DNA of 47,990 nt from Beijerinckiaceae bacterium (GTDB taxonomy: Bacteria > Pseudomonadota > Alphaproteobacteria > Rhizobiales > Beijerinckiaceae). The stretch covers positions 1 through 47,990 of the forward strand of contig CANMLK010000005.1 of NCBI GenBank assembly GCA_947498445.1, in the 5' to 3' direction. Positions 16 to 40,120 of this stretch are shown here, piece by piece (position 1 is the first letter of the stretch; each line of letters begins with the position of its first letter). The notes under the pieces were generated by a model. It did no database searches, was not told the origin of the DNA, and saw nothing but the letters and a program-made list of their open reading frames with translations. A program made the translations under genes and the position numbers.

Positions 16-1068
16 TCAGCGCTTCAGGCGGATGGTGGTGTGGGCCCGTTCGAGCAGGTCCGGCGCGGACGCATAGATGCGCGCCAGCAACTTCTGCACG
101 TCCTCTCCCGACGTCGGGTCCACTTCGTGCCCAAACCGCGTCATTTCGGCAAGCGTTTCAGAATCAGACCAGGTGGCGTCGAACGCCTTGCGCAGCGCCG
201 TAACGCGCGCGGACGGCGTTTCTTCCGCGACAAAATAGGGGCGCGCGAATACGCCTTGCGAATATATGATCTCTAATATCATCCGCGCCTCGTCAGTTTT
301 GGCGAAATCGCCGGTGCGCGGAACACCCTGTTTGTTGAGTTCGGGACTCCCCTCTACACTTTCCTGCGCCAGCACCTGGATTTTGCCGTCCTTCAGCAAT
401 CCCGCGTATTGCCCGGCCAGCGTCGTGACACCCAGTCCACACATCCCATGCACCTCACCGCGCTCGATGGCGGCGGTGATTTCACGACTACCCGGATAGC
501 CGAAGACGACCTTGAACTTCGTTCCGATGACGTTGTTGAGAAGGATAGGAAGATAGCCCGTGGAGCCGTTCTCCGCAGTTCCGCCCATCACCACTTCAGT
601 GGTCATCATGTCGGCGAGACGCGTTGCCGGCGCGTCCGGCCGCACAACGCAGAGATAATGGCCTGTGGTGGCGCTTCCCAGATAGTGGAGGCGGCGTGGA
701 TCGAAGCGCAGCTTCGCCACGTTCTCGAACACTGCGGCGAGCGGCTGGGTGGCGAACGGCGCCCCTATGACGGAGCCGTCCTTGGGCGCTGCGTTGACGA
801 CATGCGCGCTCATGACGTTGCTGCCGGCGCCGGGCATGTTCGCCACGATGAATTTCGGTGCGCCCGGCACATGCCGTCCCATGTGGCGCGCGAGGGCGCG
901 CGCAAAGATATCGTAGCCCCCACCCGCAGACGTGCCAACGATGATCTGGACGGTTTTGCCCTTGTAGAAATCGGCGACGTCTTCCTGAGCCGAAGCGGCG
1001 AAGCACGTCAGGCTTGCGACCGCCACGGCGCCGACCACTTGGCCGACCACTTGCATGTAGACTCTCAT
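16..1068 (-). CDS. Bug/TctC-family solute-binding protein (receptor 1)
   Basis: Periplasmic receptor of the tripartite tricarboxylate transporter type; characterised relatives bind citrate, dicarboxylates, amino acids or aromatic acids. The 350-residue protein has a Sec signal ending near ASA-Q28, then the first binding loop (GGGYD, Arg57), the NMPGAG turn near 78 and KDGS near 97. Cys140 and Cys210 (in EVHGMCG) sit at positions that are both Cys in receptors at 11768, 17656 and 20319, and both non-Cys in nine others, so a disulfide is likely. It most resembles the receptor at 20319 (shared GYPG-x-REI, IYSQ and F-x-RP). GGGGAGG-like ribosome site 6 nt before the ATG. It follows another receptor on the same strand after a 189-nt gap. 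The ligand cannot be read from sequence. Confidence 0.93.
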   Translation of the reverse strand: MRVYMQVVGQVVGAVAVASLTCFAASAQEDVADFYKGKTVQIIVGTSAGGGYDIFARALARHMGRHVPGAPKFIVANMPGAGSNVMSAHVVNAAPKDGSVIGAPFATQPLAAVFENVAKLRFDPRRLHYLGSATTGHYLCVVRPDAPATRLADMMTTEVVMGGTAENGSTGYLPILLNNVIGTKFKVVFGYPGSREITAAIERGEVHGMCGLGVTTLAGQYAGLLKDGKIQVLAQESVEGSPELNKQGVPRTGDFAKTDEARMILEIIYSQGVFARPYFVAEETPSARVTALRKAFDATWSDSETLAEMTRFGHEVDPTSGEDVQKLLARIYASAPDLLERAHTTIRLKR

Positions 1069-1257
1069 GCCTTCCTCCCCTGTCGCCGCATTGACGCCTG
1101 CGGCTGCATGCTACGTTAGAGCGCTTTCAGGCTGAAGCAAAAAGCTTTCGTCTCCCGCCGCAACAAACGTAAGCGAAGCGTTGATGAAAGTCGGGGCCAG
1201 ATCGGGCGACATCAGCTCCAAAGGAAGGGCAAGGAAGGGCGCAGCATTACTATGTTA

Positions 1258-2298
1258 TCAGTCACCAAAGACTGATTGTGCCCTGGCAATGACCTCCTTG
1301 CGCGACGAGAAAATCTTAACCAGCATCTCATCAGCCACTTCTCCTGGAATATAGTCGAGCAGGAGACTCATTTTCTTGGCGTCCGCAATGGCTTCAGCGT
1401 CATTCATGGTCTTCGTCAGGGCGCCGCGCAAAATTTTTGTTCGCTCGGCCGACATTCCAGGAGGCGCAATCAGAGGCCGCCCGAGATCCTGACAGGACAG
1501 AATGAGATCAATGACCTCCCTATCGAGATCATCCTTGACGAGCTCCTTGATAGACGGAACGTCGGGGATTAGCTTGCTGCGGGCAACGGTCATCTGCATT
1601 AGCAACTTGACTTGCCCAGCGGTTATCCAGTCCGATTTGGCGTATTGCAGCGTCGCGAGAGACACTGCCGCAGTCCCGCGCAACTCTCCGCTCTCCAGCG
1701 CCTGTACCGTCGCAGTCGCGCTGGGATAAGCCGGGATGACTTGCAAGTTTGCACCCAGAAGACGATTGATCACCCGGTAGAACGTGGCGGAATCACTAGT
1801 GGCTCCCGTTGCGCCCACGGGGAAGGGCTTTCCACCTAGAACGTCCTCGAGCGACGTGGGCGGCGTCTGCCAGAAAACCAAGACTCCCACGTCACTGTTT
1901 AAGCTGCCGATCCAGTTGAACTTGTTTGCTTCATAACGCGCCTGCGATTCCTTGCGAAGGATGGGCTCGACCGGAAAAGTGCGTTGGGGCATACCAAGTT
2001 CGCTGCCGTCTTTGGGGGCGACATTGTAGAGCCAGTTCGTCATGGTCATCCCGCCACTGCCGACGCGATGCGCTACAATTATCGTTGGCTCTCCCGGGAG
2101 ATGCTTGGGCATATGACGGGAAAGAAAACGCGCGTACAGATCGAAACTTCCACCCGGGCTTGTAGTCAGATTGATTGTTATCTTCTTCCACTCAACCGGG
2201 CTGGATGGCGCTTGAGCGTATGCTGTGGTGGCTATGGCGGCCAGTGATAGCGCCCCGATGAACCAAGGAATAATTTTGTTAAAGTAGTTTACAGTCAT
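1258..2298 (-). CDS. Bug/TctC-family solute-binding protein (receptor 2), divergent form
   Basis: Receptor of 346 residues with a signal peptide ending near AYA-Q28. It departs most from the family consensus: the first loop reads GGSFD instead of GGGYD, and the usual NMPGAG turn is HRVGSG, so the pocket edge differs; Asp and Arg of the first loop remain. I start at the ATG at 2298 because a GGAG lies 8 nt upstream; a GTG at 2307 in frame has that GGAG only one base away. Codon use is less GC-biased than in the genes around 12-14 kb. It is transcribed away from the nitronate monooxygenase at 2489 across a 190-nt region that could hold both promoters. Confidence 0.9.
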   Translation of the reverse strand: MTVNYFNKIIPWFIGALSLAAIATTAYAQAPSSPVEWKKITINLTTSPGGSFDLYARFLSRHMPKHLPGEPTIIVAHRVGSGGMTMTNWLYNVAPKDGSELGMPQRTFPVEPILRKESQARYEANKFNWIGSLNSDVGVLVFWQTPPTSLEDVLGGKPFPVGATGATSDSATFYRVINRLLGANLQVIPAYPSATATVQALESGELRGTAAVSLATLQYAKSDWITAGQVKLLMQMTVARSKLIPDVPSIKELVKDDLDREVIDLILSCQDLGRPLIAPPGMSAERTKILRGALTKTMNDAEAIADAKKMSLLLDYIPGEVADEMLVKIFSSRKEVIARAQSVFGD

Positions 2299-2488
2299 AA
2301 ACGTCACTCCATTTTACGAAATGTTACGTCAATCAAAATTCTTGCGCAAGCCTTCGGCCGCAGCAGATTATGACAAAGGAGGTCCTTGAAAAAACTCATA
2401 ACGCGGCGTCGCCGGACTGATCGCGTCTTGTAGACAACAGCAATCTGGTCTTAAATTACGCAGTAGAGACTAGAAACAGCCGAGGCAT

Positions 2489-3601
2489 ATGATGAAGACC
2501 GCTATTTGTGAGATGTTAGGCATAGAAATGCCTATCTTTGCCTTTTCACACTGCCGAGATGTCGTGGTCGAGGTATCAAAGGCTGGGGGCTTTGGTGTTC
2601 TGGGTGGTGGTCTGGAGCCCGATCAACTTGAGACTGAGCTGAAATGGATCGACAATCATATCGGTGGCAAGCCATATGGCGTTGACTTTCTTATGCCGCA
2701 GCGCTCGGCTCCTGTTGAGGAGGCCCTTGCTGGATCTCTCCGCGATCTGTTGCCGACACCACACCGAGTGTTTCTCGAGAACGTATTGGCGGCCTCTAAT
2801 CTTCCTGTAATCGCGCGCGAAGACTCGGCCAAAATTCAGCGAGACGCTCTTGGGCGGTTAAAGATCAGGCCGGACCAGCATCAGGAACTTCTTGATGTAA
2901 CATTCAGACACCCGATTAAGTTACTTGTTAGTGCGCTTGGCGTCCCTCCGGCGAACGTGATTTCCCGAGCGCATTCTCTGGGCGTGAAAATTGGCGCGCT
3001 TGTTGGGTCGCCTGAACACGCCGCCAAGCAAAAGGCGGCAGGCGTGGATGTCATCATAGCGCAGGGACATGAGGCAGGGGGGCATACGGGTCATATCTCG
3101 ACTATGGTTCTCGTCCCCCAGGTAGTCGACTGTGTTTTCCCGACGCCAGTCCTTGCTGCTGGAGGAATTGGCGGTGGGCGGCAAATGGCGGCCGCTCTGG
3201 CGCTGGGTGCAGACGGCGTCTGGTGCGGATCGATTTGGCTGGCGACGGCGCAAAGCGATGTGGATCCCAAAATCAAAGAGAAAATCCTGCGATCATCTTC
3301 TTCCGATGCTGTTATCACGAAGGCATGGTCCGGGAAGAACAACAGAATCCTGAAAAGCCGATGGACAGAGGCTTGGACGAAACCGGACGCCCCCGACGTA
3401 TTGATGATGCCTTTCCAGGGGCTGATGACCAAAGAAGTCATGCATCGCGCGGGACGTTCGAAGTCCAACGATTTTCTGAGCCACCCAGCCGGGCAAGTCA
3501 TTGGTCAAATCAAGTCGGAAACAAGCGTACGTCAGACCGTCAGCGATATGCTCACTGAATTCTCCGACACAATGGAACGGCTAACCAGGATAATATCCTA
3601 G
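2489..3601 (+). CDS. Nitronate monooxygenase (2-nitropropane dioxygenase family)
   Basis: FMN-dependent TIM-barrel enzyme that oxidises alkyl nitronates (often propionate-3-nitronate or nitroalkanes) to carbonyl compounds and nitrite. In 370 residues one sees the N-terminal MPIFAF strand, the active-site segment GHEAGGHTG (193-201, with the likely catalytic His199), and the phosphate-binding LAAGGIGGGRQM (222-233) followed by ALGADGVWCGS. Some relatives are enoyl reductases (FabK type) or act on unknown acids, so the nitronate substrate is a family default. GAGG precedes two adjacent ATGs (2489 and 2492); the second has better spacing. It ends 9 nt from the convergent receptor at 3611, leaving no room for a terminator. 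A receptor/nitronate oxidase pair would fit use of a nitro-acid, but this is inference. Confidence 0.88.
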   Translation: MMKTAICEMLGIEMPIFAFSHCRDVVVEVSKAGGFGVLGGGLEPDQLETELKWIDNHIGGKPYGVDFLMPQRSAPVEEALAGSLRDLLPTPHRVFLENVLAASNLPVIAREDSAKIQRDALGRLKIRPDQHQELLDVTFRHPIKLLVSALGVPPANVISRAHSLGVKIGALVGSPEHAAKQKAAGVDVIIAQGHEAGGHTGHISTMVLVPQVVDCVFPTPVLAAGGIGGGRQMAAALALGADGVWCGSIWLATAQSDVDPKIKEKILRSSSSDAVITKAWSGKNNRILKSRWTEAWTKPDAPDVLMMPFQGLMTKEVMHRAGRSKSNDFLSHPAGQVIGQIKSETSVRQTVSDMLTEFSDTMERLTRIIS

Positions 3602-3610
3602 GAAATTCAT

Positions 3611-4648
3611 TCAGCGCGCGTTCGCGAGTCTCTTCAAATTTTCGAGGACAGATCTAGGCATCGCGTGAATGCGAACAAGCTCGTCTTGCAGTTGGATACC
3701 AGTTCGCGGCCAATTCGTTTGAAGCCCGAGACGTCCTGCTTCCTCCTTAAAAACTGGGTCTTCCAGCATATCAATAAATGCTTTCCGTATCGCGGCGACA
3801 CGCGATGGTGGAACATCCGGCGGTAGAACAAAAGGGCGCCCAAGGGTCAGAGGACTGTATGCGGCTTGGAAGAGCAGTCGATCTTCCTCTGATTTTAGGA
3901 GGTCCGGGGCATAAGGAACGTCAGCTAGATCCGGTTCCCTGACGGGGCCATACTGAAGAAGGATTCGGATCTTATTATCTTTCAACCAGGCCTGCTTGGT
4001 TGACGTGAGGGAACTCCAATACGTAATTCCGAAACTGTCGACTTCACCTCGCTCGATCGCGAGATAAGCTTCATTTTGCCCCTTGTATCCGCCAATAACT
4101 TTGATTTTCGTGCCGAGAAGTTCGTTAAACACGCGCGAAAAGAAGGCGGATTGTGAATTGATTCCGTCAGAGGCTGCCAGAAACTCACGAGATCGAACAT
4201 CCTCAATGCTCTTGAAGCTTGACGTATGCCAGACAATCATGACGCCCGTTTCAGCAGCAAGGGTCCCAATCCAGTTGAACTTCGTTGCGTCATACTCGGC
4301 CTGCGGAGTGCCGAAAAGTGGTTCAAGTGGTACAAGATTGCGTAACAATCCAATTGTTGATCCATCCTTCGCCGCGACTGAGTAGAGGTGATTTGCCGCC
4401 GCGATTCCCCCTGCGCCTGGCATATGTCGAACAGAAATGACTGGCCCTCCGGGAATATGTCGAACGATGTGCCGTGCGACGGCTCTCGCCAATGTGTCGT
4501 ATCCGCCACCGCTTGACGAACCGATGATCATCGACATGCTTTTGCCAGCGTAAAATTTTTCAATTTCGTCAGCTACGGAGGGTAGGGGCACGCAGAATAG
4601 AGAGGCCAAAGATAGAAAGTGGATGAACACCTTTTTCAATCCAGGCAT
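3611..4648 (-). CDS. Bug/TctC-family solute-binding protein (receptor 3)
   Basis: A 345-residue receptor with a signal ending near SVA-D26. The first loop is GGGYDTLAR, the second turn MPGAGG is preceded by His instead of Asn (VRHMPGAGG), and KDGS follows. It has no cysteine at the two sites that are paired in receptor 1. AGAGGAGG lies 6 nt before its ATG. It is the last gene of the minus-strand operon that starts at 8838, 41 nt after the ADP-forming acyl-CoA ligase, and is therefore probably expressed with the hydratase-lyase, receptor 4 and the ligase. A hydroxycinnamate-like or other aryl/acyl carboxylate ligand is a reasonable but untested guess from that position. Confidence 0.92.
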   Translation of the reverse strand: MPGLKKVFIHFLSLASLFCVPLPSVADEIEKFYAGKSMSMIIGSSSGGGYDTLARAVARHIVRHIPGGPVISVRHMPGAGGIAAANHLYSVAAKDGSTIGLLRNLVPLEPLFGTPQAEYDATKFNWIGTLAAETGVMIVWHTSSFKSIEDVRSREFLAASDGINSQSAFFSRVFNELLGTKIKVIGGYKGQNEAYLAIERGEVDSFGITYWSSLTSTKQAWLKDNKIRILLQYGPVREPDLADVPYAPDLLKSEEDRLLFQAAYSPLTLGRPFVLPPDVPPSRVAAIRKAFIDMLEDPVFKEEAGRLGLQTNWPRTGIQLQDELVRIHAMPRSVLENLKRLANAR

Positions 4649-4689
4649 TTGATACCTCCTCTGCAGCGCAGTCAGATTTTTTTGCAGCC

Positions 4690-6879
4690 CTAAACGACAT
4701 CCGGGTCGGCTCCAGTGAGCACTACGAGCGCATCCAATGCAATGCCGCCTTTACCTTCTTCAAAAACAACAAACGGGTTGATGTCGACGGCTTCAATCTT
4801 CTCGGAGTGGTCCCGGGTGAATGCCGCCAACCCCACCAGCGCGTTGACAAGTGAGCGTCTGTCGAGCTTCGCCCCGCCGCGATAGCCGTCAAGCAACCGC
4901 GCTATTTTCGTTCTCCCCAGGAATTCGTCTGCACCATGAGAATCCAGCATCGGTGAAGAAAATGCCACGTCATTGATGACCTCCAGGAGCACACCGCCGG
5001 CGCCGACCATGAGAACACATCCGACATCGGGATCCCTGGTCACGCCAAGGGCAATCTCCAAACCACCCTTTATGAATGGCGCGACGAGTACTCCATCGAT
5101 TTCCGCGCCTGGGCAATTCCGCTTTGTGTTGGAGATAATTTCTGAGAATGCTTCGCGAACTGAATCTGCGCTTCCAAGATTGAGCTTTACGCCCCCGATA
5201 TCCGACTTATGCGCGACATCACGGCTCGCAATCTTCAAGACGACAGGATAGCCCACCGAGCCGGCTGCGATTACAGCTTCGTCAGCCGTCGCCGCAATCA
5301 TTTCCCGTGGAACTGGTATTCCATAAGCGGAAAGAATAGCCTTGGAGGTCGCTTCGTCGAGGGCCCCGGGCTTCGCGCGGGCGAGCGCATGATCAGCGTC
5401 CGTAGTGGTTCGGCTTGTTCTCAACGAGTCCGTACGCTCGGCTTCCTTCGACCCGGACACGAACTCAAAGACGTTCCGCAGCGCCCGCATGGTCTTGTCA
5501 GGTTCTTGGAGAAAAGGCGCGTGAGTTAGTTCACGTCGGAGACCTCGACTAAAATCGTTGAAGTGATAGGAAATCATCGAGCAATAAGCTACCGGCTTTT
5601 TGAATGCGCCGCTTGCAGCAAGCTCATCGATTTTGCGGAGATTATTTTCCTTCGGGTTGCCAGCCTCACGGAGAATTTCCTCCTGCAACAACAGCACGTC
5701 AATTGATGGGTCATCCAGCATTATTTTGATCGCCTGGATGTACTTTTCCTGGCTTGAAAGCGCTGCGAAACCAGCGTCAAGCGGATTACCCATGATTGTT
5801 CCCACTCCAAGGATTTCCGCCAGGCGCGTCTTCGTTTCTGGAGCGAGAGGCGGAAACTGGAGTGAATTTGCGGCCGCAGCATCAAGCAGAAGACCCCGCA
5901 GCCCGCCGGAAAATGTGAGGGCGCCCAGGCCTGCGCCTTTGGGCAGTGGGGCGTGAAGAACGTACTCAACGAACTCGATCAGATCATCGAGCGTCTTGAC
6001 CCGAATAGCGCCGGAACGAGGAGCAATCGCATCAAAAGCTTCGAAAGATCCGGCGAGAGAACCAGTGTGAGCCAATGCAGCAGCGCGGCCCTCATTTGAC
6101 CCGCCAAGTTTGGTGATGACTACGAACTTGCCCAGGCTCCGCGCAACCGAACAGGCCTCAAGAAAGCGCTCAGGACCGTGAATCGCCTCAAGGTAACATG
6201 CGATGACCTTGATCTCGGGCTGCCGCGCCATGAACTGTATGTAGTCTGCTGCGGTGAGGCCCGTCTGATTACCAATGGTCAGCAGGTAACCAGCCGTAAT
6301 TCCTCGATCATTCAGCGTGCGCTTGATGGCGGTGCCTACACCGCCGCTTTGAGAGATGATCGCGACCGGTCCGGGCTGCAGATCATGTGTCCTCGCGTCA
6401 GTCATGGTCATCAGACGAGAGGGCGCCGCGATGTTTCCCAAACAATTTGGCCCCGAAACGGCCAGCCCCGTGCGCTGGATCGTCTCTTTCAATTGGCGCG
6501 CTAGCTTGGAGGCTTCTTTCCCCTCCGCCTCCTCGAACCCGGCGCTGAAAATGGTGGCGCTGCGAGCGCCATGCCGGGCTGCATCATCAAGAACGCCCGC
6601 TACGAGTGGGGCCGGCACCACAACTATAATGTGATCAGGCGGTTCCGGGAGGGCCTCAAAGCTGGTGTAACAGGTCTCCCCCCAAATTGATTCTCGCCCA
6701 GGGTTAAGGGGATATATCTTACCGGGAAAATCATATTTCTTGAGGTTTCGCCAAGCGGCGCGTGACCAGCTATGCGCCTTGTCGCTCGCGCCCACGATAA
6801 CCACATTCCGGGGAGCTAGCAGCGCAGTGACCTGAGCAACAGCTGCGTCACCCCAGTTCGATTCCCGAGAATGTTCCAC
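4690..6879 (-). CDS. ADP-forming acyl-CoA synthetase, fused alpha-beta form (FerA/acetate-CoA ligase family)
   Basis: Activates a carboxylic acid with ATP and CoA through a phosphohistidine. The 729-residue chain has an N-terminal CoA-binding Rossmann part (VVIVGASDK near 26-34), a ligase part with FSAGF near 111 and SGPNCLG near 142, the segment AHTGSLAG with His271 matching the phosphorylated His of the family, and an ATP-grasp domain from about 505 (VVLKIASRDVAHKSD) to the end. GTG start with GGGGAG 5 nt upstream. In Sphingobium SYK-6 the feruloyl-CoA synthetase FerA belongs to this ADP-forming superfamily and is coupled with the hydratase-lyase FerB; here a FerB/HCHL-like gene starts the same operon (8838), with a receptor between. 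The substrate could equally be another acid. Confidence 0.9.
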   Translation of the reverse strand: MEHSRESNWGDAAVAQVTALLAPRNVVIVGASDKAHSWSRAAWRNLKKYDFPGKIYPLNPGRESIWGETCYTSFEALPEPPDHIIVVVPAPLVAGVLDDAARHGARSATIFSAGFEEAEGKEASKLARQLKETIQRTGLAVSGPNCLGNIAAPSRLMTMTDARTHDLQPGPVAIISQSGGVGTAIKRTLNDRGITAGYLLTIGNQTGLTAADYIQFMARQPEIKVIACYLEAIHGPERFLEACSVARSLGKFVVITKLGGSNEGRAAALAHTGSLAGSFEAFDAIAPRSGAIRVKTLDDLIEFVEYVLHAPLPKGAGLGALTFSGGLRGLLLDAAAANSLQFPPLAPETKTRLAEILGVGTIMGNPLDAGFAALSSQEKYIQAIKIMLDDPSIDVLLLQEEILREAGNPKENNLRKIDELAASGAFKKPVAYCSMISYHFNDFSRGLRRELTHAPFLQEPDKTMRALRNVFEFVSGSKEAERTDSLRTSRTTTDADHALARAKPGALDEATSKAILSAYGIPVPREMIAATADEAVIAAGSVGYPVVLKIASRDVAHKSDIGGVKLNLGSADSVREAFSEIISNTKRNCPGAEIDGVLVAPFIKGGLEIALGVTRDPDVGCVLMVGAGGVLLEVINDVAFSSPMLDSHGADEFLGRTKIARLLDGYRGGAKLDRRSLVNALVGLAAFTRDHSEKIEAVDINPFVVFEEGKGGIALDALVVLTGADPDVV

Positions 6880-6902
6880 TCTTTCTCCCCGTACTGGTTT
6901 CG

Positions 6903-7922
6903 TTATTCGCTGATGATAGGGCGCGCACGTTCTACAAGGGATTTCGGAGCCGTCAGAACCTCATTCACCACGCGGGTGAGCTCTTCTCCACTGACGGGAT
7001 TGATATCCAGAAGCATCTTGGAAGCCTCGCCAATAAAAGCGGGATCGCTCGTTGTCGACATGAACGCCGTCCGAAGAATATTGATCGACTCCGCAGTGCC
7101 GCCTGGTCCTGCGGCCATCGCGAACCCAAGCTTGGAACCGGCGAGCACAAAGTCCGCGAGACGGCGATCATCCGGATTCGTCGCAAGTTCCTGAATGGAC
7201 GGGACGCCTGGAAGTTCTGCGGATTTAGGCTCTGCCTGGATGAACATGAGAATACGTTTCTCATTCCACCAACCCGGCTTGGTAACCTTCCAGTTCTCAA
7301 TGCTGCTCAAGACGGCCTCCGCCTCACCGCGTTCCAGAGCGAGACTGATGTCAGCGAGGCCCTGGTAACCGGTGACGATTTTGAATCGTGTTCCCAAAAT
7401 CGCATTAGTCAGGGCAGGAACAGTGTACGTAATGGCGCCTTTGGCGGATGCAGCCACGATAACTTCACGTTTTTTGGCGTCTTCCCAGCTGTCCAGGCCG
7501 CGCCCTCTCCAGGCGGTCAGAGTTACTGAGACCGGACTGATCGATCCGATCCACCCGAACTGGGCCAGATCAAACTGGACGCCACGCCCGCCCACCGCCT
7601 GCAACGCTGGCAGGGTATTTGGTATCATACCAAGTTGGGCGCCGTCTTTTGGCGCTTGCGCATGAAGATAATTCACCATGCGAATGCCGCCAGCACCAAT
7701 AAGGTTCTGGACGACAAACGTCGGAGCGCCAGAGATGTGGCGCCCCATGTGTCGCGATAGAAGTCGACCGTTCGTATCGTATGACGCCCCCGGTGTTCCG
7801 CCTACGTAGATATTGATCGTCTTGCCCTTGAAGAAGGCGCTACTGTCCGCTTGTTGGGAGCGGGCGGTCAGCGAGGTTGAGATAAGCGCGATTCCAACAT
7901 ACGTAATCAAGATGTGTTTCAT
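6903..7922 (-). CDS. Bug/TctC-family solute-binding protein (receptor 4)
   Basis: A 339-residue receptor with a signal ending near ARS-Q22. Its first loop is GASYDTNGR and its second turn NLIGAGG, both off consensus. It forms a recognisable pair with the receptor at 23011: both share QFD followed by WIG, the segment KGAITY/RGAITY near the middle, and KPGW/KPDW before the late strand, so they probably bind related ligands. GAGGAGG is 6 nt before the ATG. It lies between the hydratase-lyase-like gene (67 nt upstream) and the acyl-CoA ligase (23 nt downstream), so it is very likely cotranscribed with them. Confidence 0.92.
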   Translation of the reverse strand: MKHILITYVGIALISTSLTARSQQADSSAFFKGKTINIYVGGTPGASYDTNGRLLSRHMGRHISGAPTFVVQNLIGAGGIRMVNYLHAQAPKDGAQLGMIPNTLPALQAVGGRGVQFDLAQFGWIGSISPVSVTLTAWRGRGLDSWEDAKKREVIVAASAKGAITYTVPALTNAILGTRFKIVTGYQGLADISLALERGEAEAVLSSIENWKVTKPGWWNEKRILMFIQAEPKSAELPGVPSIQELATNPDDRRLADFVLAGSKLGFAMAAGPGGTAESINILRTAFMSTTSDPAFIGEASKMLLDINPVSGEELTRVVNEVLTAPKSLVERARPIISE

Positions 7923-7989
7923 CGCCGCCTCCTCGCAGTATGCGCTTCTGCAAAGCTCCGAACCTACCTAAAGCTGGAATGAAGCCAGA

Positions 7990-8838: not shown

Positions 8839-8856
8839 TGTGGACGCCTCCCAAAT

Positions 8857-8878
8857 ATGTTGTAATTTGAACCAACAT
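8857..8878. promoter_or_regulatory. Candidate operator between the hydratase-lyase and acyl-CoA dehydrogenase genes
   Basis: Inverted repeat ATGTTG-N10-CAACAT in the 223-nt divergent intergenic region, directly upstream of the ribosome site of the minus-strand gene. A dimeric regulator of both divergent transcripts could bind here. No regulator gene lies adjacent, so the assignment rests only on symmetry and position. Confidence 0.35.
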
Positions 8879-28223: not shown

Positions 28224-28346
28224 GAGCGCCTCCCGTGTAGCGCTTGTGAGCGTGCGCCGCACTCAGTATCGCCGGAGATTGGTCTCGGGTAAGCTACTTT
28301 CTCGTCACTTGAATGTTCACGAACTGGAAACAATCGGAGGTGGGCC

Positions 28347-32196: not shown

Positions 32197-33156
32197 TCAG
32201 CTCGAATAAAAAACCGCCGGATCGACGTCCTGATGCTCAGTCAGCCCGCGGATTGCTGCTTGCGCAATCGCCAGCCTGATTTCCTCCGCGCTCGCGCCGA
32301 TATGTGGCGTGGCGAGCATGTTTGGATGGTGGATAAGCGCGTCGTTTTCTGCAGGTTCGACAGCGAAGACGTCAAAGGCGGCAGCCATCAAGTCCCCCGA
32401 TTCCAGTCTCGCGAGGACGGCCGCTTCATCGACGATGCCGCCTCTGCAGGTGTTGATGAGCACGCAACCGGACTGCAACTTACCGACGACTTTGGCATCG
32501 TACAGACCAAGGGTTTGTTTGGTCTTCGGCAAGTGCAGGGACAACACCTCCGAACGCTCCAGCAATTCGTCGAAGGAGACAGCCGTGACGTTGTTGCGCG
32601 CGTAGAATTCGGAATAATCCTTTGTGTCGCACGCAAGAATTGTGCAGCCAAAAGGCTGCAGCATTCGCACGACCTCCTTGCCGATGTTGCCGCAGCCGTG
32701 AAGGCCGACCGTCCGCCCCGTCAGGAGTCGGCCGTTGCGGTAGGTAGGTCGCTCACCCGCCCGCATGGACAGGTTCAATGGCAGGATCCAGCGTTGCGCG
32801 GCTATCATGAAGCAGAGCGTCAGTTCTGCGACCGCCAGCTTGTTGACGCCCCACGTGTAGCCGAAGCGAACGCCATGGCGTTTCAGCGCGTGGAAGTCGA
32901 TCGTTTCGCAGCCCGCGCCATATTTGCTGATGACCTTAAGCCGCGGCAATGCGGACAGGACTCTTTCGGTCACAGGTTCAAAGCCGATGACCGCCGCGTC
33001 ACAATCCTTGAGAAAGTCTATGAGCGCGTCTTCGCTCATGTAGCGAAGGCCTTCGTAGAGAATGGCGTCTGGATAAGCGGCGGTGAACACAGCCCTCATG
33101 CGAGGATGTCTCGCGATCATCGGTGCAGCGACGGCAATGCGGGTTGGTTTATCCAT
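32197..33156 (-). CDS. 2-hydroxyacid dehydrogenase (phosphoglycerate dehydrogenase-like)
   Basis: A 319-residue D-2-hydroxyacid dehydrogenase. Cofactor motif HGCGNIG (153-159) with Asp177 after the second strand, indicating NAD; catalytic Arg238 (TCRGG), Glu267 (AVEPAE) and His285 (TPHIGA). It resembles the catalytic region of phosphoglycerate dehydrogenase without a regulatory C-terminus. It differs clearly from the enzyme at 26631, so the two serve different acids. It is 86 nt downstream of receptor 12 and under the likely control of the LysR gene at 34385. Confidence 0.92.
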   Translation of the reverse strand: MDKPTRIAVAAPMIARHPRMRAVFTAAYPDAILYEGLRYMSEDALIDFLKDCDAAVIGFEPVTERVLSALPRLKVISKYGAGCETIDFHALKRHGVRFGYTWGVNKLAVAELTLCFMIAAQRWILPLNLSMRAGERPTYRNGRLLTGRTVGLHGCGNIGKEVVRMLQPFGCTILACDTKDYSEFYARNNVTAVSFDELLERSEVLSLHLPKTKQTLGLYDAKVVGKLQSGCVLINTCRGGIVDEAAVLARLESGDLMAAAFDVFAVEPAENDALIHHPNMLATPHIGASAEEIRLAIAQAAIRGLTEHQDVDPAVFYSS

Positions 33157-33242: not shown

Positions 33243-34274
33243 TTATCTCGCCGGCGCCATCAACGAGCGCATGCGCGCCTTCACGTCTTCGGGCGCAGTC
33301 TGTATCGCTTTCAGCATTTTAACGATCTGCGTAGCGTCGATGGGGCTGACGTCTGCTCCAAGGCGCGCGAATTCCTGCAGCAATTCCGGGTCTTTCATCA
33401 CTTTCGTAAAGCCATCCTGAAGGGACTTTGCGAGCGCTTCAGGAAGATTTGGCGGTGCGATGTAAGGTTTCGACAACGCGAAGGGAAGCTCGATCAAATC
33501 AAGGAGGGCCCTGTCGTTGTCGCTGAGCGGGAGTTCTCGTGCAAGCGGCACGTTGGGGTAGGCGGGATGGCGCGTGCGTCGCGCAAACTGGACGATGGGC
33601 TGCACCTGGCTGCTATCTCCAACCCACGTATTTTGTGAGGCGCGAACCGCAGAGAGGCCAACAAATCGTCCATCGAGTTCGCCTCGCTCAATTGCCAGAA
33701 AGAGCGCGTTGCTGTCGGGATAGCCGCTGACGGTTTTTATTGGCAGCTTGAGCGCCTCGCGGGCGAAGACTGCAAACTCGCTGCCCTCGCCAGTCACGCC
33801 GACCATGATTTCGCGTTTGCTGGAAACTGCATCTTTCATGTCTCCCGCCAGCGACTTGCGGATCCAGAACAGGTAGGCGTCATCCTCATAGCTGCTGGCG
33901 GAACCTATCCAGGTAAACTCGACAGGATCGATGCGCACGGACTTGCTATCGCCAGAAAGGCCGATGAGCCCGACATCGCGGGAGACAGTTCCGAAGACAG
34001 ACCCGTCCTTGGGCGCGCTGGCGTAGATGAAGTTGGTCGCTCGCAGGCTTGCTGCGCCTGGCATGTTCTGAACGGTGATGCCGGGCGCGCCCGGGAGATA
34101 TTTGGGCATGTGTCGGGCGATGACTCGCGCGTAGGCGTCGTAACCCCCGCCTGGACCGTAGCCGACAATGAGGCGGATCTGACGCGGCAAGGTCTCATTG
34201 GCGAATGCGCCGAAACTCAGAAGGGCGGCACATGCGAACGCCGCAAGGCCGGAGCCCAATCCATGGCGGATCAT
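33243..34274 (-). CDS. Bug/TctC-family solute-binding protein (receptor 12)
   Basis: A 343-residue receptor from ATG 34274 (GGGAGG 8 nt upstream); the open frame extends 15 codons further without a ribosome site. Signal ends at AFA-N26. Loops GGGYDAYAR, NMPGAAS and APKDGS. The middle region is less like the others (GEGSEFAVFAREALKLP in place of the common VLGTKFK strand entry), and the RGEV segment is RGEL. It opens an operon with the hydroxyacid dehydrogenase and is divergent from a LysR regulator 110 nt away, the clearest receptor-plus-regulator unit here. Confidence 0.92.
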   Translation of the reverse strand: MIRHGLGSGLAAFACAALLSFGAFANETLPRQIRLIVGYGPGGGYDAYARVIARHMPKYLPGAPGITVQNMPGAASLRATNFIYASAPKDGSVFGTVSRDVGLIGLSGDSKSVRIDPVEFTWIGSASSYEDDAYLFWIRKSLAGDMKDAVSSKREIMVGVTGEGSEFAVFAREALKLPIKTVSGYPDSNALFLAIERGELDGRFVGLSAVRASQNTWVGDSSQVQPIVQFARRTRHPAYPNVPLARELPLSDNDRALLDLIELPFALSKPYIAPPNLPEALAKSLQDGFTKVMKDPELLQEFARLGADVSPIDATQIVKMLKAIQTAPEDVKARMRSLMAPAR

Positions 34275-34327
34275 TCTCTTATCCTCCCTAGTGTTTTTGT
34301 TGCGCCTGAGTGTCTGCAAAGCGCGGG

Positions 34328-34342
34328 GAGACCGCTAGTCTC
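34328..34342. promoter_or_regulatory. Candidate LysR operator between receptor 12 and its regulator
   Basis: Inverted repeat GAGAC-CGCTA-GTCTC in the 110-nt divergent region; looser outer symmetry (CTGAG at 34306-34310, CTCAG at 34340-34344) surrounds it. Position between a LysR gene and its probable target fits an activator site, though the classical T-N11-A core is not exact. Confidence 0.4.
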
Positions 34343-34384
34343 AGATCGAGTTGCACAGTGTTTCGTTCAATGGGACAATACTCC

Positions 34385-35290
34385 ATGGACAAACTCAAGG
34401 CGATCAAATCGTTCGTAGAAGCCGCTACGAACTTGAGTTTCACCGCCGCTGCCCGCCGCCTGGGTATTCCCCGCGGCAAGGTGAGCCGCGATATCGCCGA
34501 TCTTGAACAGCAGCTTGGCATCCGCCTGTTTAATCGCACGACGCGCGAGGTGAGCCTGACGGAGGCCGGGACTCGCTATCTGCAAACCTGCCAGCATGTG
34601 CTTGGCGTGATGCGCACGGACGAAGCGCGGCTCGTTGACGTCAACACGCAGAACGAGGGCATGTTGCGGATTCTCTCCGTGCGTTCTTTCGGCGAGCGGC
34701 ATCTTGCGCAGGCCGCCGCCGCATTTCGCGTTGCGAACCCGGCCATCAGGATAAATCTTGAACTGGCGCCGGGCACCAAGACGCCGCTTCAATTGCACGA
34801 GGGCGGGTTCGATCTGGGCGTGTGCATCGCGCCGGTGCGCAGCGCCTCTGCCGTGGTCAGGAAGATCGCAAATTTCAGTTGGATACTTTGCGCAAGTCCG
34901 GCGTTTGCGGCGGGGCTGGACGGCGGCCTTCGCCTCGAAGACCTTTCGGCATACCCGGCCGTCATCAACCCGCGGTCGACCCAAAACGCCATCTACAACT
35001 TCACGCGGGGCTCGCGGACCTATTCGGCGCAATTGAATGTCGAGATCGCCATTACAAATTACTGGGCGATCCGCGACGTTCTGCTCACCGGCTTTGGTCT
35101 CTCCGTTCTCCCATCCTTCTGCATCAGGGAGGACATTGAAGCCGGTCGACTGGTGCGGCTTTTGCCAGAATATTCGCTGGGCGAAGATCAGGTCTCGGCT
35201 GTCTATCCGCACTTTCAGCATGTGCCGACCAAGGCCAAACGCTTTGCAGATTTTCTGAGGCGACGGTTTGATCGCACGCTTGATCTTTGA
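34385..35290 (+). CDS. LysR-type transcriptional regulator
   Basis: A 301-residue regulator from ATG 34385. Helix-turn-helix in residues 15-45 (LSFTAAARRLGIPRGKVSR) followed by LEQQLGIRLFNRTTREV; effector domain from about 90 with SFGERHLAQAAAAF. It starts divergently to receptor 12 and is the probable regulator of the receptor/dehydrogenase pair. Its stop is only 7 nt from the stop of the convergent receptor 13. It belongs to the same CrgA-like LysR group as the one at 28347 (shared NRTTR and similar length) but the effector domains differ. Confidence 0.93.
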   Translation: MDKLKAIKSFVEAATNLSFTAAARRLGIPRGKVSRDIADLEQQLGIRLFNRTTREVSLTEAGTRYLQTCQHVLGVMRTDEARLVDVNTQNEGMLRILSVRSFGERHLAQAAAAFRVANPAIRINLELAPGTKTPLQLHEGGFDLGVCIAPVRSASAVVRKIANFSWILCASPAFAAGLDGGLRLEDLSAYPAVINPRSTQNAIYNFTRGSRTYSAQLNVEIAITNYWAIRDVLLTGFGLSVLPSFCIREDIEAGRLVRLLPEYSLGEDQVSAVYPHFQHVPTKAKRFADFLRRRFDRTLDL

Positions 35291-35297: not shown

Positions 35298-36317
35298 TCA
35301 GGGCTTGGATGAACCACGCTCAGCGCGCAGCAGACCGAACTTTCCAGCTTCTGCTGTTAGCAGGGTCTGCAGGCGCAAGCCGGGCGAGGGATCGAAGTCG
35401 ACTTGCGACTTTGCGATCTCGGCGAGCAAAGTCTCGCTTGTGACCATCTTGTCGAATCCGTCGCGCAGCGCCTGCACGCGCGCGCTGGCCATATCTGGAG
35501 GCCCAAAGATCGCGTAGCCCACATCGGCGGCGCTCACATATAAACTCAGCAAGTCGCGCTCGCGTTCGCCTTTCGCCAATTCGATAGCCGTGGGCACATC
35601 CGGCAAGTCTCGATGACGTGTAAGCGCGTACTGGACAAGGATATTTATCTTCTTGTCCGTCAGCCAGCCAGATTTTTGCGTCTTGATCGTGCTCCAGGAC
35701 ATCGTGGTCCCTTCAACTTCGCCCCGCTCCATGGCGAGCATTGTGGAACTTGAATCGGCGTAGCCTGGAACGAGCTTGAATTGCGAGCCGGCATAATCAT
35801 TGAGCGCGCGCGGCAGCATGCTCAAGGGCGAGTTGATCGAAATTCCTGCGATCAACATCTCGCGCTTCTTGACGTCATCGACCGTCTTGGCGACGCTGGT
35901 ATGCCACGCAACGGTGACATTGGCGATGGACGCCAGTCGGCCAATCCAGTTGAAGCGCGCTGCATGAAAGCGAACGCCGGGCGAGTTGAGCCCTTCAATC
36001 AGCGAGACAGACGGACTCACAATACCCAACGCTGAACCATCCTTCGGCGCGACGGTGTAAACGTAGTTGGCGGCTGTGATGCTGCCGGCGCCGGGCATGT
36101 TCTGTGGTGTTATCGAAGGCGACCCCGGCAAGTGCCTGCCAAGGCGGCGCGCGGCGAGGCGCCCGTAATAATCGTATCCGCCACCGGGGCCAGATCCGAT
36201 GTAAAGGCTGATGGATTTTGGCGCGGCGTCGTCATCTGCATGAGCGCGCGAATCCATCACGCTCCAGGCGCCTGCGCAAACAATCACTGAAAGCGTCAGT
36301 TGTTGTAACGTCGCCAT
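35298..36317 (-). CDS. Bug/TctC-family solute-binding protein (receptor 13)
   Basis: A 339-residue receptor from ATG 36317, preceded by AGAAGG 6 nt upstream; a GTG seven codons earlier is an alternative. Signal ends at AHA-D28. Loops GGGYDYYGR (aromatic residue after Asp), NMPGAGS and APKDGS; Arg-Arg-Leu replaces RHM. It is the third gene of bicupin, lactonase-like amidohydrolase and receptor, only 21 nt after the amidohydrolase, so a lactone-derived or cyclic acid ligand is plausible. Confidence 0.92.
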   Translation of the reverse strand: MATLQQLTLSVIVCAGAWSVMDSRAHADDDAAPKSISLYIGSGPGGGYDYYGRLAARRLGRHLPGSPSITPQNMPGAGSITAANYVYTVAPKDGSALGIVSPSVSLIEGLNSPGVRFHAARFNWIGRLASIANVTVAWHTSVAKTVDDVKKREMLIAGISINSPLSMLPRALNDYAGSQFKLVPGYADSSSTMLAMERGEVEGTTMSWSTIKTQKSGWLTDKKINILVQYALTRHRDLPDVPTAIELAKGERERDLLSLYVSAADVGYAIFGPPDMASARVQALRDGFDKMVTSETLLAEIAKSQVDFDPSPGLRLQTLLTAEAGKFGLLRAERGSSKP

Positions 36318-36338: not shown

Positions 36339-37217
36339 TTAAAACCCGTGCAAGCGCGCGGGATTGCTTACGAGCACCTTGTGAAGAAGTGCGTCGTCGC
36401 CATCGACGTAGCGATAGAGGAGCTCGACTTCCTCGGCGTCGTTCATCATCCGCGCCTTGCGCCAACGCACATGCGGCCAATCAGACGCCCAGATGATGCG
36501 GTCAGGAGCTGCTGCAATATAGGCCTTTCCGAAGGGAACAGCGTCGCTCCAACCTTCGTCCTGCGCCGACGTCCTGTTGCCGTTGGAGACCATCATCCAC
36601 CAATTGGGACGCTGCAACATCTTCAACATCCATTGAACAGCTGGCTGTTGCAGGCCCAGCGAAAAATCAACTCGCCCCATGTGATCAATGACGATATCGA
36701 CATCGTGCAGCGTCTCCAAAACGTCGGCGTATTCAAGAAAGTCCGCGCCGTCCAAGTGAAGCCGGATATGCCAGCCCAGACGCCGCGCGCGATCCACGGA
36801 CTTCAGGAAGGCTTCCTTTGGATAGGCGTCGTAACGCTTGGCGATGTGAAAGCGGATACCGCACACGCCAAGCGACGCAAGGTCTTCAAGCTCCTTGTCG
36901 GCCACCGTGTCCTTGATAACGACTACGCCCTTGTAGGACGCAGGGTCGTTTGCCTCAGTCAGGAGATCGACGAGCAAGCTGTAGTCAACATCGTACACGC
37001 TGGGGTGTACGAGCACGGCGCGCGAGAAGCCGAGTATCTTGAGAACGCGCCGCGCGTCGTCGAAATTCCCATCTGGAATTTCATGCTGGATGTTCCAGCG
37101 CACCGGGTACTTGTCGGTGTCGCCGTACACATGCACCTGACAGTCGCAGCTATTTTGCGGCGGCAGCGGAACCGGTGCTCTGGTGTTGCGGTCCCAGTCG
37201 GGAAATCGCTCCTTCAT
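36339..37217 (-). CDS. Amidohydrolase (COG3618: PDC hydrolase / sugar-lactonase-like)
   Basis: A 292-residue TIM-barrel protein of the group that includes 2-pyrone-4,6-dicarboxylate hydrolase LigI and galactarolactone enzymes, which open lactones without a required divalent metal. It shows CDCQVHVYGD (24-33), IDHMGR near 180 and WASDWPH near 247. The first motif has Gln27 where the classical HxH metal pair has His, consistent with a metal-independent lactonase. The ATG has AAGG 8 nt upstream. Between the bicupin (21 nt upstream) and receptor 13 (21 nt downstream), a tight operon pointing to a dicarboxylate lactone or pyrone as substrate; this is inference. Confidence 0.85.
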   Translation of the reverse strand: MKERFPDWDRNTRAPVPLPPQNSCDCQVHVYGDTDKYPVRWNIQHEIPDGNFDDARRVLKILGFSRAVLVHPSVYDVDYSLLVDLLTEANDPASYKGVVVIKDTVADKELEDLASLGVCGIRFHIAKRYDAYPKEAFLKSVDRARRLGWHIRLHLDGADFLEYADVLETLHDVDIVIDHMGRVDFSLGLQQPAVQWMLKMLQRPNWWMMVSNGNRTSAQDEGWSDAVPFGKAYIAAAPDRIIWASDWPHVRWRKARMMNDAEEVELLYRYVDGDDALLHKVLVSNPARLHGF

Positions 37218-37238: not shown

Positions 37239-38480
37239 TTACATTCCGTTGAATTCGGTCATCGGGCGGACCTCGCCTTCTTTCGGCGTCTCATAGATCC
37301 AGTCTTCCATCCGACTTTGCCCGCCTTCGGCCTTGATGGTTTCCTCGTATTCGCGGCGGATGTAGGGATCTTCCTCGTCATAGGGAATGGCGTTGCCGCC
37401 ATCACGCAGATCGATGGCGCCGAGATCCTTTTCCTTCTCACCGGGACGTCCCGGCCGTCTGCCGCGCGCATTGTTCGGGCCAAACCACGCGCTCATGCGC
37501 AGCGGGCCCTTGCTGATGCCAAAGTGCTGATGGAACCAGTCGCCGCTCATGGGCGCAGCGCTAACCATGCCTACGGGCTCGTAATCGACGCGGAAAACCT
37601 GATCGGCCATGCCGCTTTCCCATGGGCGCGTGCCAAGGGTCGACGGCCACGTGTAGGTGTAGCCTTTGCCGTTCACACAGATGAGAACGGCTGCCGAACC
37701 ATGCTTGTGAGCTTTCGAATAGCGCCCCGTCTCGTGCTCGCCAATCCACATGTAAAAGCGGTTGCCAGCCATGTGTGGCTCGATGCGCCGGTAGCCAGGC
37801 GACCGGCGATTGTCCAGAGGCAGCTCGCAACGCATGATGTCGGGCACGAGATTTGTGCGGCGCATGGCGAGCCCACGGACGGGATCTGAAGCCACATCTT
37901 CGCGCGGTTTGAAGTAATCAGCCTTGCCGCTGAAGCGATCCGAAAATGTGAACGGGTTGTTGAAAATGAATTCCTCATTCCCGTAAAGGTTCATCGCGTT
38001 GGGCGCTGATGTTCCCGCAAGCAGAAGCGCTGGAGATGACGAGCCGTTGACGATTCGATGATAGGCGTTCAGCGGGATCGCAAACAGAGATCCCTTCTGC
38101 CATTCAAAAACGTGCTTCGATCCACCTTCCTGCCACACCTCGGTCGTTCCGCGGCCTTCGACGACGAGAAATTGCTCTTCGTACATGTGCCGTTCGACGT
38201 TCAAGGCGCCGGCGCCCGGAACCTCGATGACGTAGGAGCCCCAAAGGCCCTCGGTTCCAAACAGCTGAATGAACGTTCCGCGTCCGCCCGTCCGCGCCCA
38301 TGGCTTTAACGGTAGATTCTGAACCTTGCTGACGCCAACGGCTCGAACGATCGGAATGCCTTGATCTTCCATGAAGACGTCATAAGGCATGGGAGGGCGC
38401 TTGAACTCACCAAGGCCAGCCTTTTGGGAGAGGCCCGTGGGTTCGTGCCAGTGTTCATCAGCGTTCAGATCGTGTGGCAT
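37239..38480 (-). CDS. Two-domain cupin (bicupin)
   Basis: A 413-residue protein with two cupin barrels, about 78-155 and 245-325. The first has NVERHMYEEQF (His98) and NAYHRIVNG (His141); the second has KAHKHGSAAVLICVNG (His258, His260) and WFHQHFG (His317, His319). Only the second keeps a full set of candidate metal ligands. The architecture resembles gentisate-type dioxygenases and related oxygenases, but no close match is apparent to me, so a ring-cleaving or other metal role is only possible. The C-terminal 80 residues are charged. It starts the bicupin/amidohydrolase/receptor 13 operon; GGAGG is 10 nt from the ATG. Confidence 0.85.
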   Translation of the reverse strand: MPHDLNADEHWHEPTGLSQKAGLGEFKRPPMPYDVFMEDQGIPIVRAVGVSKVQNLPLKPWARTGGRGTFIQLFGTEGLWGSYVIEVPGAGALNVERHMYEEQFLVVEGRGTTEVWQEGGSKHVFEWQKGSLFAIPLNAYHRIVNGSSSPALLLAGTSAPNAMNLYGNEEFIFNNPFTFSDRFSGKADYFKPREDVASDPVRGLAMRRTNLVPDIMRCELPLDNRRSPGYRRIEPHMAGNRFYMWIGEHETGRYSKAHKHGSAAVLICVNGKGYTYTWPSTLGTRPWESGMADQVFRVDYEPVGMVSAAPMSGDWFHQHFGISKGPLRMSAWFGPNNARGRRPGRPGEKEKDLGAIDLRDGGNAIPYDEEDPYIRREYEETIKAEGGQSRMEDWIYETPKEGEVRPMTEFNGM

Positions 38481-39037
38481 GTCGAGAGTGCCTCCATGTT
38501 CAATTTGTCAGTCTTAATTTGCGAACACTGCTTAACGCAGCGCCGCGAAAATTCACGTCGTGCTGGCTGTCGCCGCGATGAAATCTGAAAATCTGACGCG
38601 CAGACAAGCGTTTCGCCCGCATCGCAACGCTGGACATCCCTGGTCCCCGTCAGGCTCAAGGCGCAGCGACATTCCTCCCTTTGCGCAATTGTCCACCACA
38701 CAGCACGCTGGTGGTAGACGTAGCGGCTGAGAAACAGTGATACCAAGAATGAGACAATCAACGAGGCCGGGAACAGCTTTAAATTCATCGTATATCGTTG
38801 ATTTAAAGCCTATTTCTTCTTGGGTTGGGGGAGATCAGGCGGAGTGCAGGTACGGGTTGTTCGCAGGCTTTCCCAGAATCATGCCTTCTCAGGGCGAAGC
38901 TATTTTGCTTAGAGTGGAAAAAATCGGGAGGCGGCGCGGCGCCAGCCAACGCCAGCTTAGTCGTGATCTTCTTGTGCAGCGAAAATGAGCTGCCGCATCA
39001 CGCAATCAATATGCCTTCAAAGGCCAGGGAGGTCGGC
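38481..39037. other. 557-nt divergent intergenic region
   Basis: Lies between the bicupin (minus) and receptor 14 (plus). A minus-strand open frame here starts with a hydrophobic stretch but has no family match and runs into the bicupin start, so I do not call it. The main feature is the AT-rich inverted repeat at 38776-38809. Confidence 0.6.
38776..38809. promoter_or_regulatory. Long AT-rich inverted repeat, candidate operator
   Basis: Arms GCTTTAAAT (38776-38784) and ATTTAAAGC (38801-38809) are exact complements around a 16-nt centre containing ATCGTATATCGT, itself close to symmetric. The centre resembles the GTATA-type sites of GntR-family regulators. It is about 230 nt before the receptor 14 start and 300 nt before the bicupin start, so it could serve either; no regulator gene is adjacent. 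Confidence 0.5.
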
Positions 39038-40120
39038 ATGACGCAACGATTCAAGCCAGCAAAATACCCCGCTATTTATCTGGCGGTCGCCTTGAGCGTA
39101 TTGGCGAGCAATCTGTGCATGGCGCAGGGAGCGCCATCGACAACGACCGCCGGTCCGACATCGGAATCTGGCGGCGATGGCGCCGCAAAAGCGCAGATGC
39201 GTCTTCTCGTTGGATCGAGTCCCGGTGGTGGTTACGACACCTATGCAAGACTGATTGCGGCTCACCTGCCCAGACGCCTTCCAAACAGCCCCCGGATTAT
39301 CGTGCAGAACATGCCGGGCGCGGGCTCACTCGTGGTAAGCAACTACCTCGCAAATATCGCCCCGCGCGATGGTTCTGTTTTTGCGGCTGTTCATAATCTC
39401 GCCGCCACCCACCCGCTCTTCTATCCTGATCGCGCCAAGTATGATTCTCGAACTTTGGTATGGATCGGCAGCGCGGTTCGCGAAACGACGTTTGGACTCG
39501 CCAGCAAAGCCTCCAACGTCCCGTCGTTCAAGAACGTCCTTCAACAAGAAATGATCGTCGCAGGAAGCACAGGATCGACGACGAGTTTTCCGACATTCTT
39601 GAACGCTGTTCTTGGAACCCGTTTCAATGTTGTGAAAGGCTACAATGCAACCAGCGCCGCTCTCCTTGCGCTGGAACGCGGCGAGGTGAATGGCGTCATT
39701 GGCGTCACTGGCCCCGGCATGAGGGGGCTCGGCGATCGCCTTGTCGAGCAAGGCAAGGCGCGCGTATTCATCCAGTTTGGCATGAGTCGGCACCCAGATC
39801 ACCTGACGACCGATTGGGTCTTCGACTATGCTGAACGGCCTGAGCAGCGCGTTGCAATGAATCTCATGTTCGGCACTCAGGAGTTCGGACGTCCCTTTGT
39901 CGCCCCGCCGGGGTTATCGGCGACCCACGCGCAAACTCTGCGCACTGCTTTTGCAAATATACTTAAGGACGAACTGCTTTTGGAAGAGGCTAAAAAGCGG
40001 AAGATCGACATCGGCTACACAAGCCCCGAAGAAATTGCCGAAATTATCGCCAGCATGCACCAGGCGCCGCCTGCCGCGATCCAGTTGGTGAAGCAATTGC
40101 TCGGGGATCAGCCGCAATAA
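39038..40120 (+). CDS. Bug/TctC-family solute-binding protein (receptor 14)
   Basis: A 360-residue receptor from ATG 39038 (GGGAGG 5 nt upstream); the open frame extends far upstream but without coding character. The signal ends near CMA-Q29 and is followed by a Ser/Thr/Gly-rich linker of about 20 residues (30-50) not found in the other receptors. Loops GGGYDTYAR, NMPGAGS and PRDGS (Arg in place of Lys). His of the RHM segment is shifted (AHLPRRLP). It stands alone on its strand, divergent from the bicupin operon and convergent with the molybdenum hydroxylase operon. Confidence 0.92.
   Translation: MTQRFKPAKYPAIYLAVALSVLASNLCMAQGAPSTTTAGPTSESGGDGAAKAQMRLLVGSSPGGGYDTYARLIAAHLPRRLPNSPRIIVQNMPGAGSLVVSNYLANIAPRDGSVFAAVHNLAATHPLFYPDRAKYDSRTLVWIGSAVRETTFGLASKASNVPSFKNVLQQEMIVAGSTGSTTSFPTFLNAVLGTRFNVVKGYNATSAALLALERGEVNGVIGVTGPGMRGLGDRLVEQGKARVFIQFGMSRHPDHLTTDWVFDYAERPEQRVAMNLMFGTQEFGRPFVAPPGLSATHAQTLRTAFANILKDELLLEEAKKRKIDIGYTSPEEIAEIIASMHQAPPAAIQLVKQLLGDQPQ

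Follow-up and report, generated by a model that had tools for sequence, protein, structure and literature searches.

The window analysed here (47,990 bases) makes up the entire contig C5 of a Beijerinckiaceae bacterium, whose draft genome (G000) has a size of 3.91 Mb in 332 contigs and is 97.96% complete. Between positions 16 and 40120 the window carries 14 full-length, open receptor genes of the TctC/Bug fold (R1-R14), as judged by translation and alignment, and this agrees with the number and span given in a first-pass annotation. In total, 32 genes were counted up to position 40120 (the first-pass annotation gave about 40), of which the receptors make up 44%. Their products probably share a scarce fused TctA-TctB permease of their own lineage, encoded elsewhere in the genome. 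Many of the 25 non-receptor genes scanned encode acyl-CoA, amide, hydroxy-acid, cupin or molybdenum-hydroxylase proteins, and the only regulators among them are two of LysR type. The features of the window, with assignments predicted from translations, alignments and profile matches (Pfam for the non-receptor genes), are as follows.

16-1068, minus strand: R1, divergent TctC-fold receptor (open frame, signal-like N-terminus, alignment; 447 bits to a profile that includes R1)
1258-2307, minus strand: R2, divergent TctC-fold receptor (open frame, alignment, profile match)
2489-3601, plus strand: nitronate monooxygenase family enzyme (PF03060, E 5e-47)
3611-4648, minus strand: R3, divergent TctC-fold receptor (open frame, alignment, profile match)
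4690-6879, minus strand: putative ADP-forming-type acyl-CoA synthetase (ATP-grasp_5, Succ_CoA_lig, CoA_binding_2)
6903-7922, minus strand: R4, divergent TctC-fold receptor (open frame, alignment, profile match)
7990-8838, minus strand: enoyl-CoA hydratase family (PF00378)
9062-10210, plus strand: acyl-CoA dehydrogenase family (Pfam)
10503-11567, plus strand: R5, divergent TctC-fold receptor (open frame, alignment; 95% protein identity in congener G007)
11768-12784, plus strand: R6, divergent TctC-fold receptor (open frame, alignment; in the block shared with G007)
12813-13880, plus strand: ornithine cyclodeaminase/mu-crystallin family (OCD), start not settled (PF02423; in the G007 block with R5-R6)
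14365-15111, minus strand: enoyl-CoA hydratase family (Pfam)
15187-17556, minus strand: molybdopterin hydroxylase large subunit (MoCoBD_1/2, Ald_Xan_dh_C)
17656-18738, minus strand: R7, divergent TctC-fold receptor (open frame, alignment, branch profile match)
18919-20322, minus strand: amidase (PF01425)
20319-21377, minus strand: R8, divergent TctC-fold receptor (open frame, alignment)
22201-22674, plus strand: cupin protein (weak PF07883 match, below cut-off)
23011-24036, minus strand: R9, divergent TctC-fold receptor, start approximate (open frame, alignment)
24109-25308, plus strand: amidohydrolase_2 family, start uncertain (PF04909)
25557-26603, minus strand: R10, divergent TctC-fold receptor, start approximate (predicted structure, Foldseek)
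26631-27614, minus strand: D-2-hydroxyacid dehydrogenase family (PF02826)
27681-28262, minus strand: cupin protein (Pfam)
28347-29324, plus strand: LysR-type regulator (Pfam)
29686-31080, plus strand: amidase (Pfam)
31104-32135, plus strand: R11, divergent TctC-fold receptor, start approximate (open frame, alignment)
32197-33156, minus strand: D-2-hydroxyacid dehydrogenase family (Pfam)
33243-34274, minus strand: R12, divergent TctC-fold receptor (open frame, alignment)
34310-35290, plus strand: LysR-type regulator (Pfam)
35298-36317, minus strand: R13, divergent TctC-fold receptor (open frame, alignment)
36339-37217, minus strand: amidohydrolase_2 family (Pfam)
37239-38480, minus strand: cupin protein (Pfam)
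39038-40120, plus strand: R14, divergent TctC-fold receptor (open frame, alignment)
40375-44039, minus strand: molybdenum hydroxylase, large, FeS and FAD subunits (40375-42669, 42673-43155, 43149-44039; Pfam)

The receptors are diverse (27-37% identity to R1 among the other 13). The first-loop motif G-x-x-x-D-x-x-x-R and the DG further along, taken as family-defining from the alignment of the receptors to TphC, are kept in all 14 (G49, D53, R57, D97, G98); D53, R57, D97 and G98 are invariant and, as the first-pass annotation had observed, the G and Y positions around the D/R motif vary, G49 excepted. Matches to PF03401 (TctC) were obtained for nine of the 14 at E<=1e-3, some of them under the curated 27-bit cut-off, and an NCBIfam scan named none of the 14 as TctC and gave weak TRAP_TAXI matches for two. 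A profile built from the 14 receptors matched solved Bug proteins, with the best E-value (7e-16) to TphC. The predicted structure of R10, the one receptor modelled, had a mean predicted local distance difference test score (pLDDT) of 91.8, and a Foldseek search of the PDB returned only TctC/Bug proteins at ranks 1-17 (template modelling scores 0.61-0.79), separated by an E-value gap from the next match. Since the 14-receptor profile matches solved Bug proteins and R10 has this predicted fold, all 14 genes are taken to encode TctC-fold proteins, and on these alignments and this model the window receptors form a divergent branch of TctC/Bug. Signal-like N-termini were recognised in the translations by eye.

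Among the 25 non-receptor proteins of the window, Pfam detected no TctA, TctB, TRAP, ABC or MFS membrane domain, in line with the first-pass annotation, so that no complete TctABC set (TctA and TctB encoded with a receptor) is found within the window. Over the whole genome, the search and count which that annotation had proposed gave seven TctA and seven TctB matches against at least 180 places with branch receptors (union of two branch profile searches), a large excess of receptors over permeases. Each of the two branch profiles had at least 150 matches (best 150 of 360 and of 361 candidates), and PF03401 at least 146 (best 150 of 292 candidates). A looser count that includes low-scoring PF03401 matches gave about 214 places on 105 contigs, and some of the 180-214 places may be fragments. 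The genome-average density was thus 46-55 receptors per Mb, compared to 292 per Mb in the window, which is the most receptor-rich contig counted (14 receptors; the next has seven). An even spread of about 214 receptors would place 2.6 in the window (Poisson 7e-7), a probability that overstates the excess because the receptors of this genome are clustered. Contigs C31, C41 and C108 are equally dense (277-297 per Mb), while no receptor was present in 15 of 20 stretches taken by rank across the contigs. The genome therefore has patches rich in receptors and tracts free of them, and the array is no local oddity. The view of the first-pass annotation that such packing is striking is weakened, with equally dense contigs elsewhere in the genome and similar expansions already published (PMC5994714, PMC5812351). 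That annotation would have regarded TctAB genes immediately beyond both window ends, together with comparable receptor density throughout the genome, as making the array unremarkable; the contig ends with the window, comparable patches do exist, and the density over the genome is uneven.

In a tree of 100 of the 206 eligible receptors (quick method; 26 of 96 inner branches left open), window and non-window labels changed 12 times, relative to a mean of 13.3 on shuffling, and 84 of 500 shuffles were as low. Local tandem duplication was rejected as the origin of the array: because the 14 receptors are scattered among their paralogs, the array was gathered. When window positions 1-20000 were compared with 36 congeners (best 8 of up to 257 candidates per genome), the block of R5, R6 and OCD (10431-13891) was found to be collinear in G007 at 90% identity, and the other matches listed were at most about the size of a single gene, at 64-78%. 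In congener G033 (locus L172, 4973-9286), a molybdenum hydroxylase and an enoyl-CoA hydratase like those at window 14365-17556 adjoin a different receptor paralog. Elsewhere in the own genome, four arylmalonate-decarboxylase-family genes are interleaved among the seven branch receptors of C31 (L005, 457-11114), four glyoxalase-fold frames, of which two overlap, among four receptors of C108 (L003, 1037-9957), and the sole enzyme found by Pfam among the receptors of the C41 stretch is MmgE/PrpD. These few loci suggest that receptor-enzyme modules have been copied, moved and re-paired. Families of the window enzymes gave four matches in eight receptor-rich stretches and four in 15 receptor-free stretches (0.37 relative to 0.14 per 10 kb), small counts from an over-strict search that found no LysR. 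An ornithine-cyclodeaminase-family gene also lies interleaved with the receptors of C31 (L005, 457-11114). Just left of the R5-R6-OCD block, a stretch of about 190 bp (10220-10408) is about 78% identical at two places in G007 (C96 and C12), one of which was checked (L174) and lies between longer frames; this repeat may mark a cassette boundary. The intergenic stretches of the window gave no repeat copies among the loci compared.

Five of the seven TctA matches in the genome are classical by score, and the other two lie on C121 and C266. C121 carries a complete TctABC set with split TctA and TctB and two receptors of an outer sub-branch. Named genomes of Rhizobium, Ensifer, Sinorhizobium and Phyllobacterium encode TctA proteins of this type at 71-74% identity; the nearest loci (90-92%) come from metagenome-assembled genomes labelled 'Beijerinckiaceae bacterium' or 'Hyphomicrobiales bacterium', and some isolate names among these nearest loci suggest a lake or pond habitat. 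Searching congeners with the C121 TctA revealed a second type, with frames mostly of 690-730 residues, and in both full-length frames of this type that were scanned Pfam placed TctA and TctB domains on a single protein. The genome under study contains the N-terminal part of such a fused permease as a contig-edge piece on C266 (60% identity with the G022 protein), and the C-terminal TctB part as a piece running off the end of C41, a contig that also carries six branch receptors. The two pieces, which we infer to come from one gene, thus provide a lineage-matched TctAB outside the window, in addition to the C121 set for the outer branch. Among 80 loci, wherever the fetched flank held a receptor, TctA proteins near the C121 type adjoined branch-type receptors and the most distant TctA proteins adjoined classical ones, with L098 as an exception; judging from these sequences, permease and receptors co-diverge.

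The association was surveyed in 297 genomes of the order, in each of which the best seven receptor and best three permease candidates were scored (cut-offs: core receptor, E<=1e-80; TctA of the lineage of the fused permease, E<=1e-90). Core receptors were found in 11 genomes and the TctA lineage in 44, and all 11 fall within the 44 (Fisher 2e-10; 1.6e-9 without G000). The TctA is fused in all 11 (judged from its pieces in G000), and in the ten besides G000 the fused permease lies at most 3.4 kb from a core receptor, with six of the ten at 250 bp or less. At 570 bits or above, a cut for close fused permeases that was set after the results were seen, 11 order genomes remained, ten of them with core receptors; the piece of G000 scores 437. 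Of the 33 genomes with the TctA lineage in which no core receptor was found, some carry frames of about 510-550 residues that are not fused (for example, G053, G094, G222, G225 and G283). Within the genus, all 37 genomes contained core receptors (E<=1e-50) and the fused permease, either intact or fragmented (only pieces in G009 and G000). Core receptors numbered seven in G010, 26 in G006 and at least 34 in each of the other 35, and first-look receptor candidates ranged from 23 to 357 per genome. The fused permeases at genus loci L130, L132, L135, L137 and L138 had no branch receptor within the fetched flanks. At L141 (G001, 8273-14485), two fused TctAB genes stand in tandem, followed by a branch receptor. 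Over the phylum, the core branch was found in two of 398 genomes sampled, one being G000 (best five candidates per genome).

Published ligand contacts of TphC (PMC8556258) were mapped onto 102 core receptors by sequence alignment. The position of T155, which in TphC contacts the deep carboxylate (PMC8556258), ranks at the 96th percentile of variability, among the highest, while those of G34 and A36 are conserved, the latter being Tyr or Phe in 93 of the 102. Only eight of the 14 contact positions exceed the 50th percentile of variability. As far as alignment can tell, the pattern fits one scaffold with many ligands.

We consider it probable that the array consists of receptor-enzyme cassettes whose receptors share a scarce, unlinked fused TctAB of their own lineage. 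The reading builds on what was observed, that is, the receptors, the predicted fold of one of them, their branch, the scarcity of the permease, its co-occurrence with the branch across genomes, and its place near a receptor in low-copy relatives. The 14 genes would then be part of a genome-wide swarm of high-affinity periplasmic receptors, each retained next to a catabolic gene or a small group of them and each catching a single type of organic acid or acid-like substrate. Loaded receptors, those of the window included, would dock in turn on the fused protein of about 700 residues, which would bring the substrate in, probably by ion symport. If one or two permeases serve many receptors in this way, a new substrate could be added through a single receptor and its enzyme. 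An unlinked permease has a precedent in tphC, whose catabolic operon is separate from tpiBA (PMC8556258). The wider proposal, that one lineage-specific fused TctAB is the universal dock for well over 100 branch receptors here and that modular cassettes are gained, lost and re-paired across the genus as a plug-in uptake system, is offered tentatively, at somewhat less than an even chance.

Several observations weigh against a shared fused permease. No core receptor was found, among the best seven receptor candidates each, in 33 of the 44 genomes with the TctA lineage, and one of these, G068, has a close fused TctAB (602 bits); absences in the order survey are not firm, since the best seven receptor and three permease candidates were scored per genome. 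With only seven core receptors in G010, the swarm is not equally large everywhere. At L129, L131 and L141, a branch receptor lies no more than about 1.1 kb from the genus permease and could be its private partner. The number of permease copies, tallied by hand among the matches listed with fragments included, was unrelated to the number of first-look receptor candidates, classical ones included (Spearman 0.08); the lack of scaling fits a hub, but fits the lack of a functional link as well. The fused permease of the own genome was seen solely as two non-overlapping contig-edge pieces, and in Rhodoplanes some receptors of the tripartite tricarboxylate transporter (TTT) family are linked to ABC (41) and TRAP (8) systems (PMC5994714).

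The window receptors could instead dock on ordinary TctAB, either that of the five classical TctA proteins or the C121 set. Such permeases are present in the genome, and C121, with its two receptors, is of the same broad lineage; in the quick tree, however, ten classical receptors form a separate clade (support 99) apart from those of the window, and another (support 99), likewise apart, is made up of ten C121-type receptors plus one receptor of this genome, from C42. In addition, 21 of the 37 congeners, several of them incomplete drafts, have no C121-type TctA at 700 bits or above yet do have core receptors. We therefore regard ordinary TctAB as an unlikely partner. The suggestion of interchangeable receptors sharing a distant TctAB, made in the first-pass annotation, thus gained support from the genome for a specific fused TctA-TctB lineage, with the sharing itself short of proof. 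Its other suggestion, a periplasmic sensing repertoire in which sensor kinases, chemoreceptors or regulators would receive the signal from loaded receptors, with import as a secondary role, drew no support from the window, where the 25 scanned non-receptor genes include the two LysR types and no histidine kinase or chemoreceptor; this survey was limited to the window. Across genomes, the receptor branch goes with a permease, and a sensing role appears very improbable. Receptor numbers that vary from seven (G010) and 26 (G006) to at least 34 in the genus would be in line with receptors that scavenge or buffer and have no dedicated partner, or with an expansion in decay, most of whose copies have lost their function. 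All 14 window receptors are, however, full-length and open with the invariant residues of the family, and among the 102 core receptors the loop positions are conserved while one ligand-facing position is strongly variable, which makes scavenging or decay the least probable of the explanations.

Receptor swarms as such are already published. Rhodoplanes sp. Z2-YC6860 has 434 TTT receptors and nine TctA (PMC5994714), and betaproteobacteria listed in PMC5812351 have 52-214 receptors each. The idea that a few TctAB serve many Bug/TctC receptors was put forward in 2003 (as cited in PMC4996985), and a shared permease is given as one open possibility for the Rhodoplanes swarm (PMC5994714). The Rhodoplanes case resembles the present one in that an alphaproteobacterium carries TctC-type receptors by the hundred, most of them orphans, with tandem clusters among them and few TctAB (PMC5994714), and in density (434 in 8.2 Mb, or about 53 per Mb, relative to 46-55 here). 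It differs in that its receptors were found by classical TctC/Bug queries at E<=1e-15 (PMC5994714) and lie across the whole genome, with links to varied transporters, whereas here a divergent branch goes with a fused TctAB. The Bug receptors of Bordetella and Cupriavidus are likewise orphan swarms, with 2-8 TctA (PMC5812351), but are betaproteobacterial, and the core branch described here was met in just the two phylum genomes mentioned above. TphC/TpiBA of Comamonas also has its receptor gene in a catabolic operon and its permease genes elsewhere (PMC8556258), but consists of one receptor for one substrate, with split TpiB and TpiA. Fused TctAB, with both domains in one protein, is mentioned as rare (PMC5812351); here it occurs in every genus genome sampled, together with a receptor swarm.

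What appears to be new is the matching of a receptor branch to a fused permease lineage, the receptor-permease neighbours in low-copy genomes, and the genus-wide pattern. The genus expansion and its pairing with fused TctAB were not met in the searches made of an open-access library, which is no proof of their being unpublished. With branch and lineage matched, low-copy relatives offer a small, tractable pair and the swarm offers many paralogs for the same dock, so that promiscuous docking becomes directly testable with a specific candidate permease. If the reading is true, it would account for the ability of a roughly 4-Mb genome to serve very many dilute organic acids, and under the wider proposal catabolic range would grow without new permeases.

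Rfam and tRNA scans of the window gave no matches. Near the contig end, a small DUF6789 protein (45543-46031) is followed by a 490-residue protein without a Pfam match (46063-47535), and an OpgC-like C-terminal part (PF10129; 47457-47984) is probably cut by the end of the contig.

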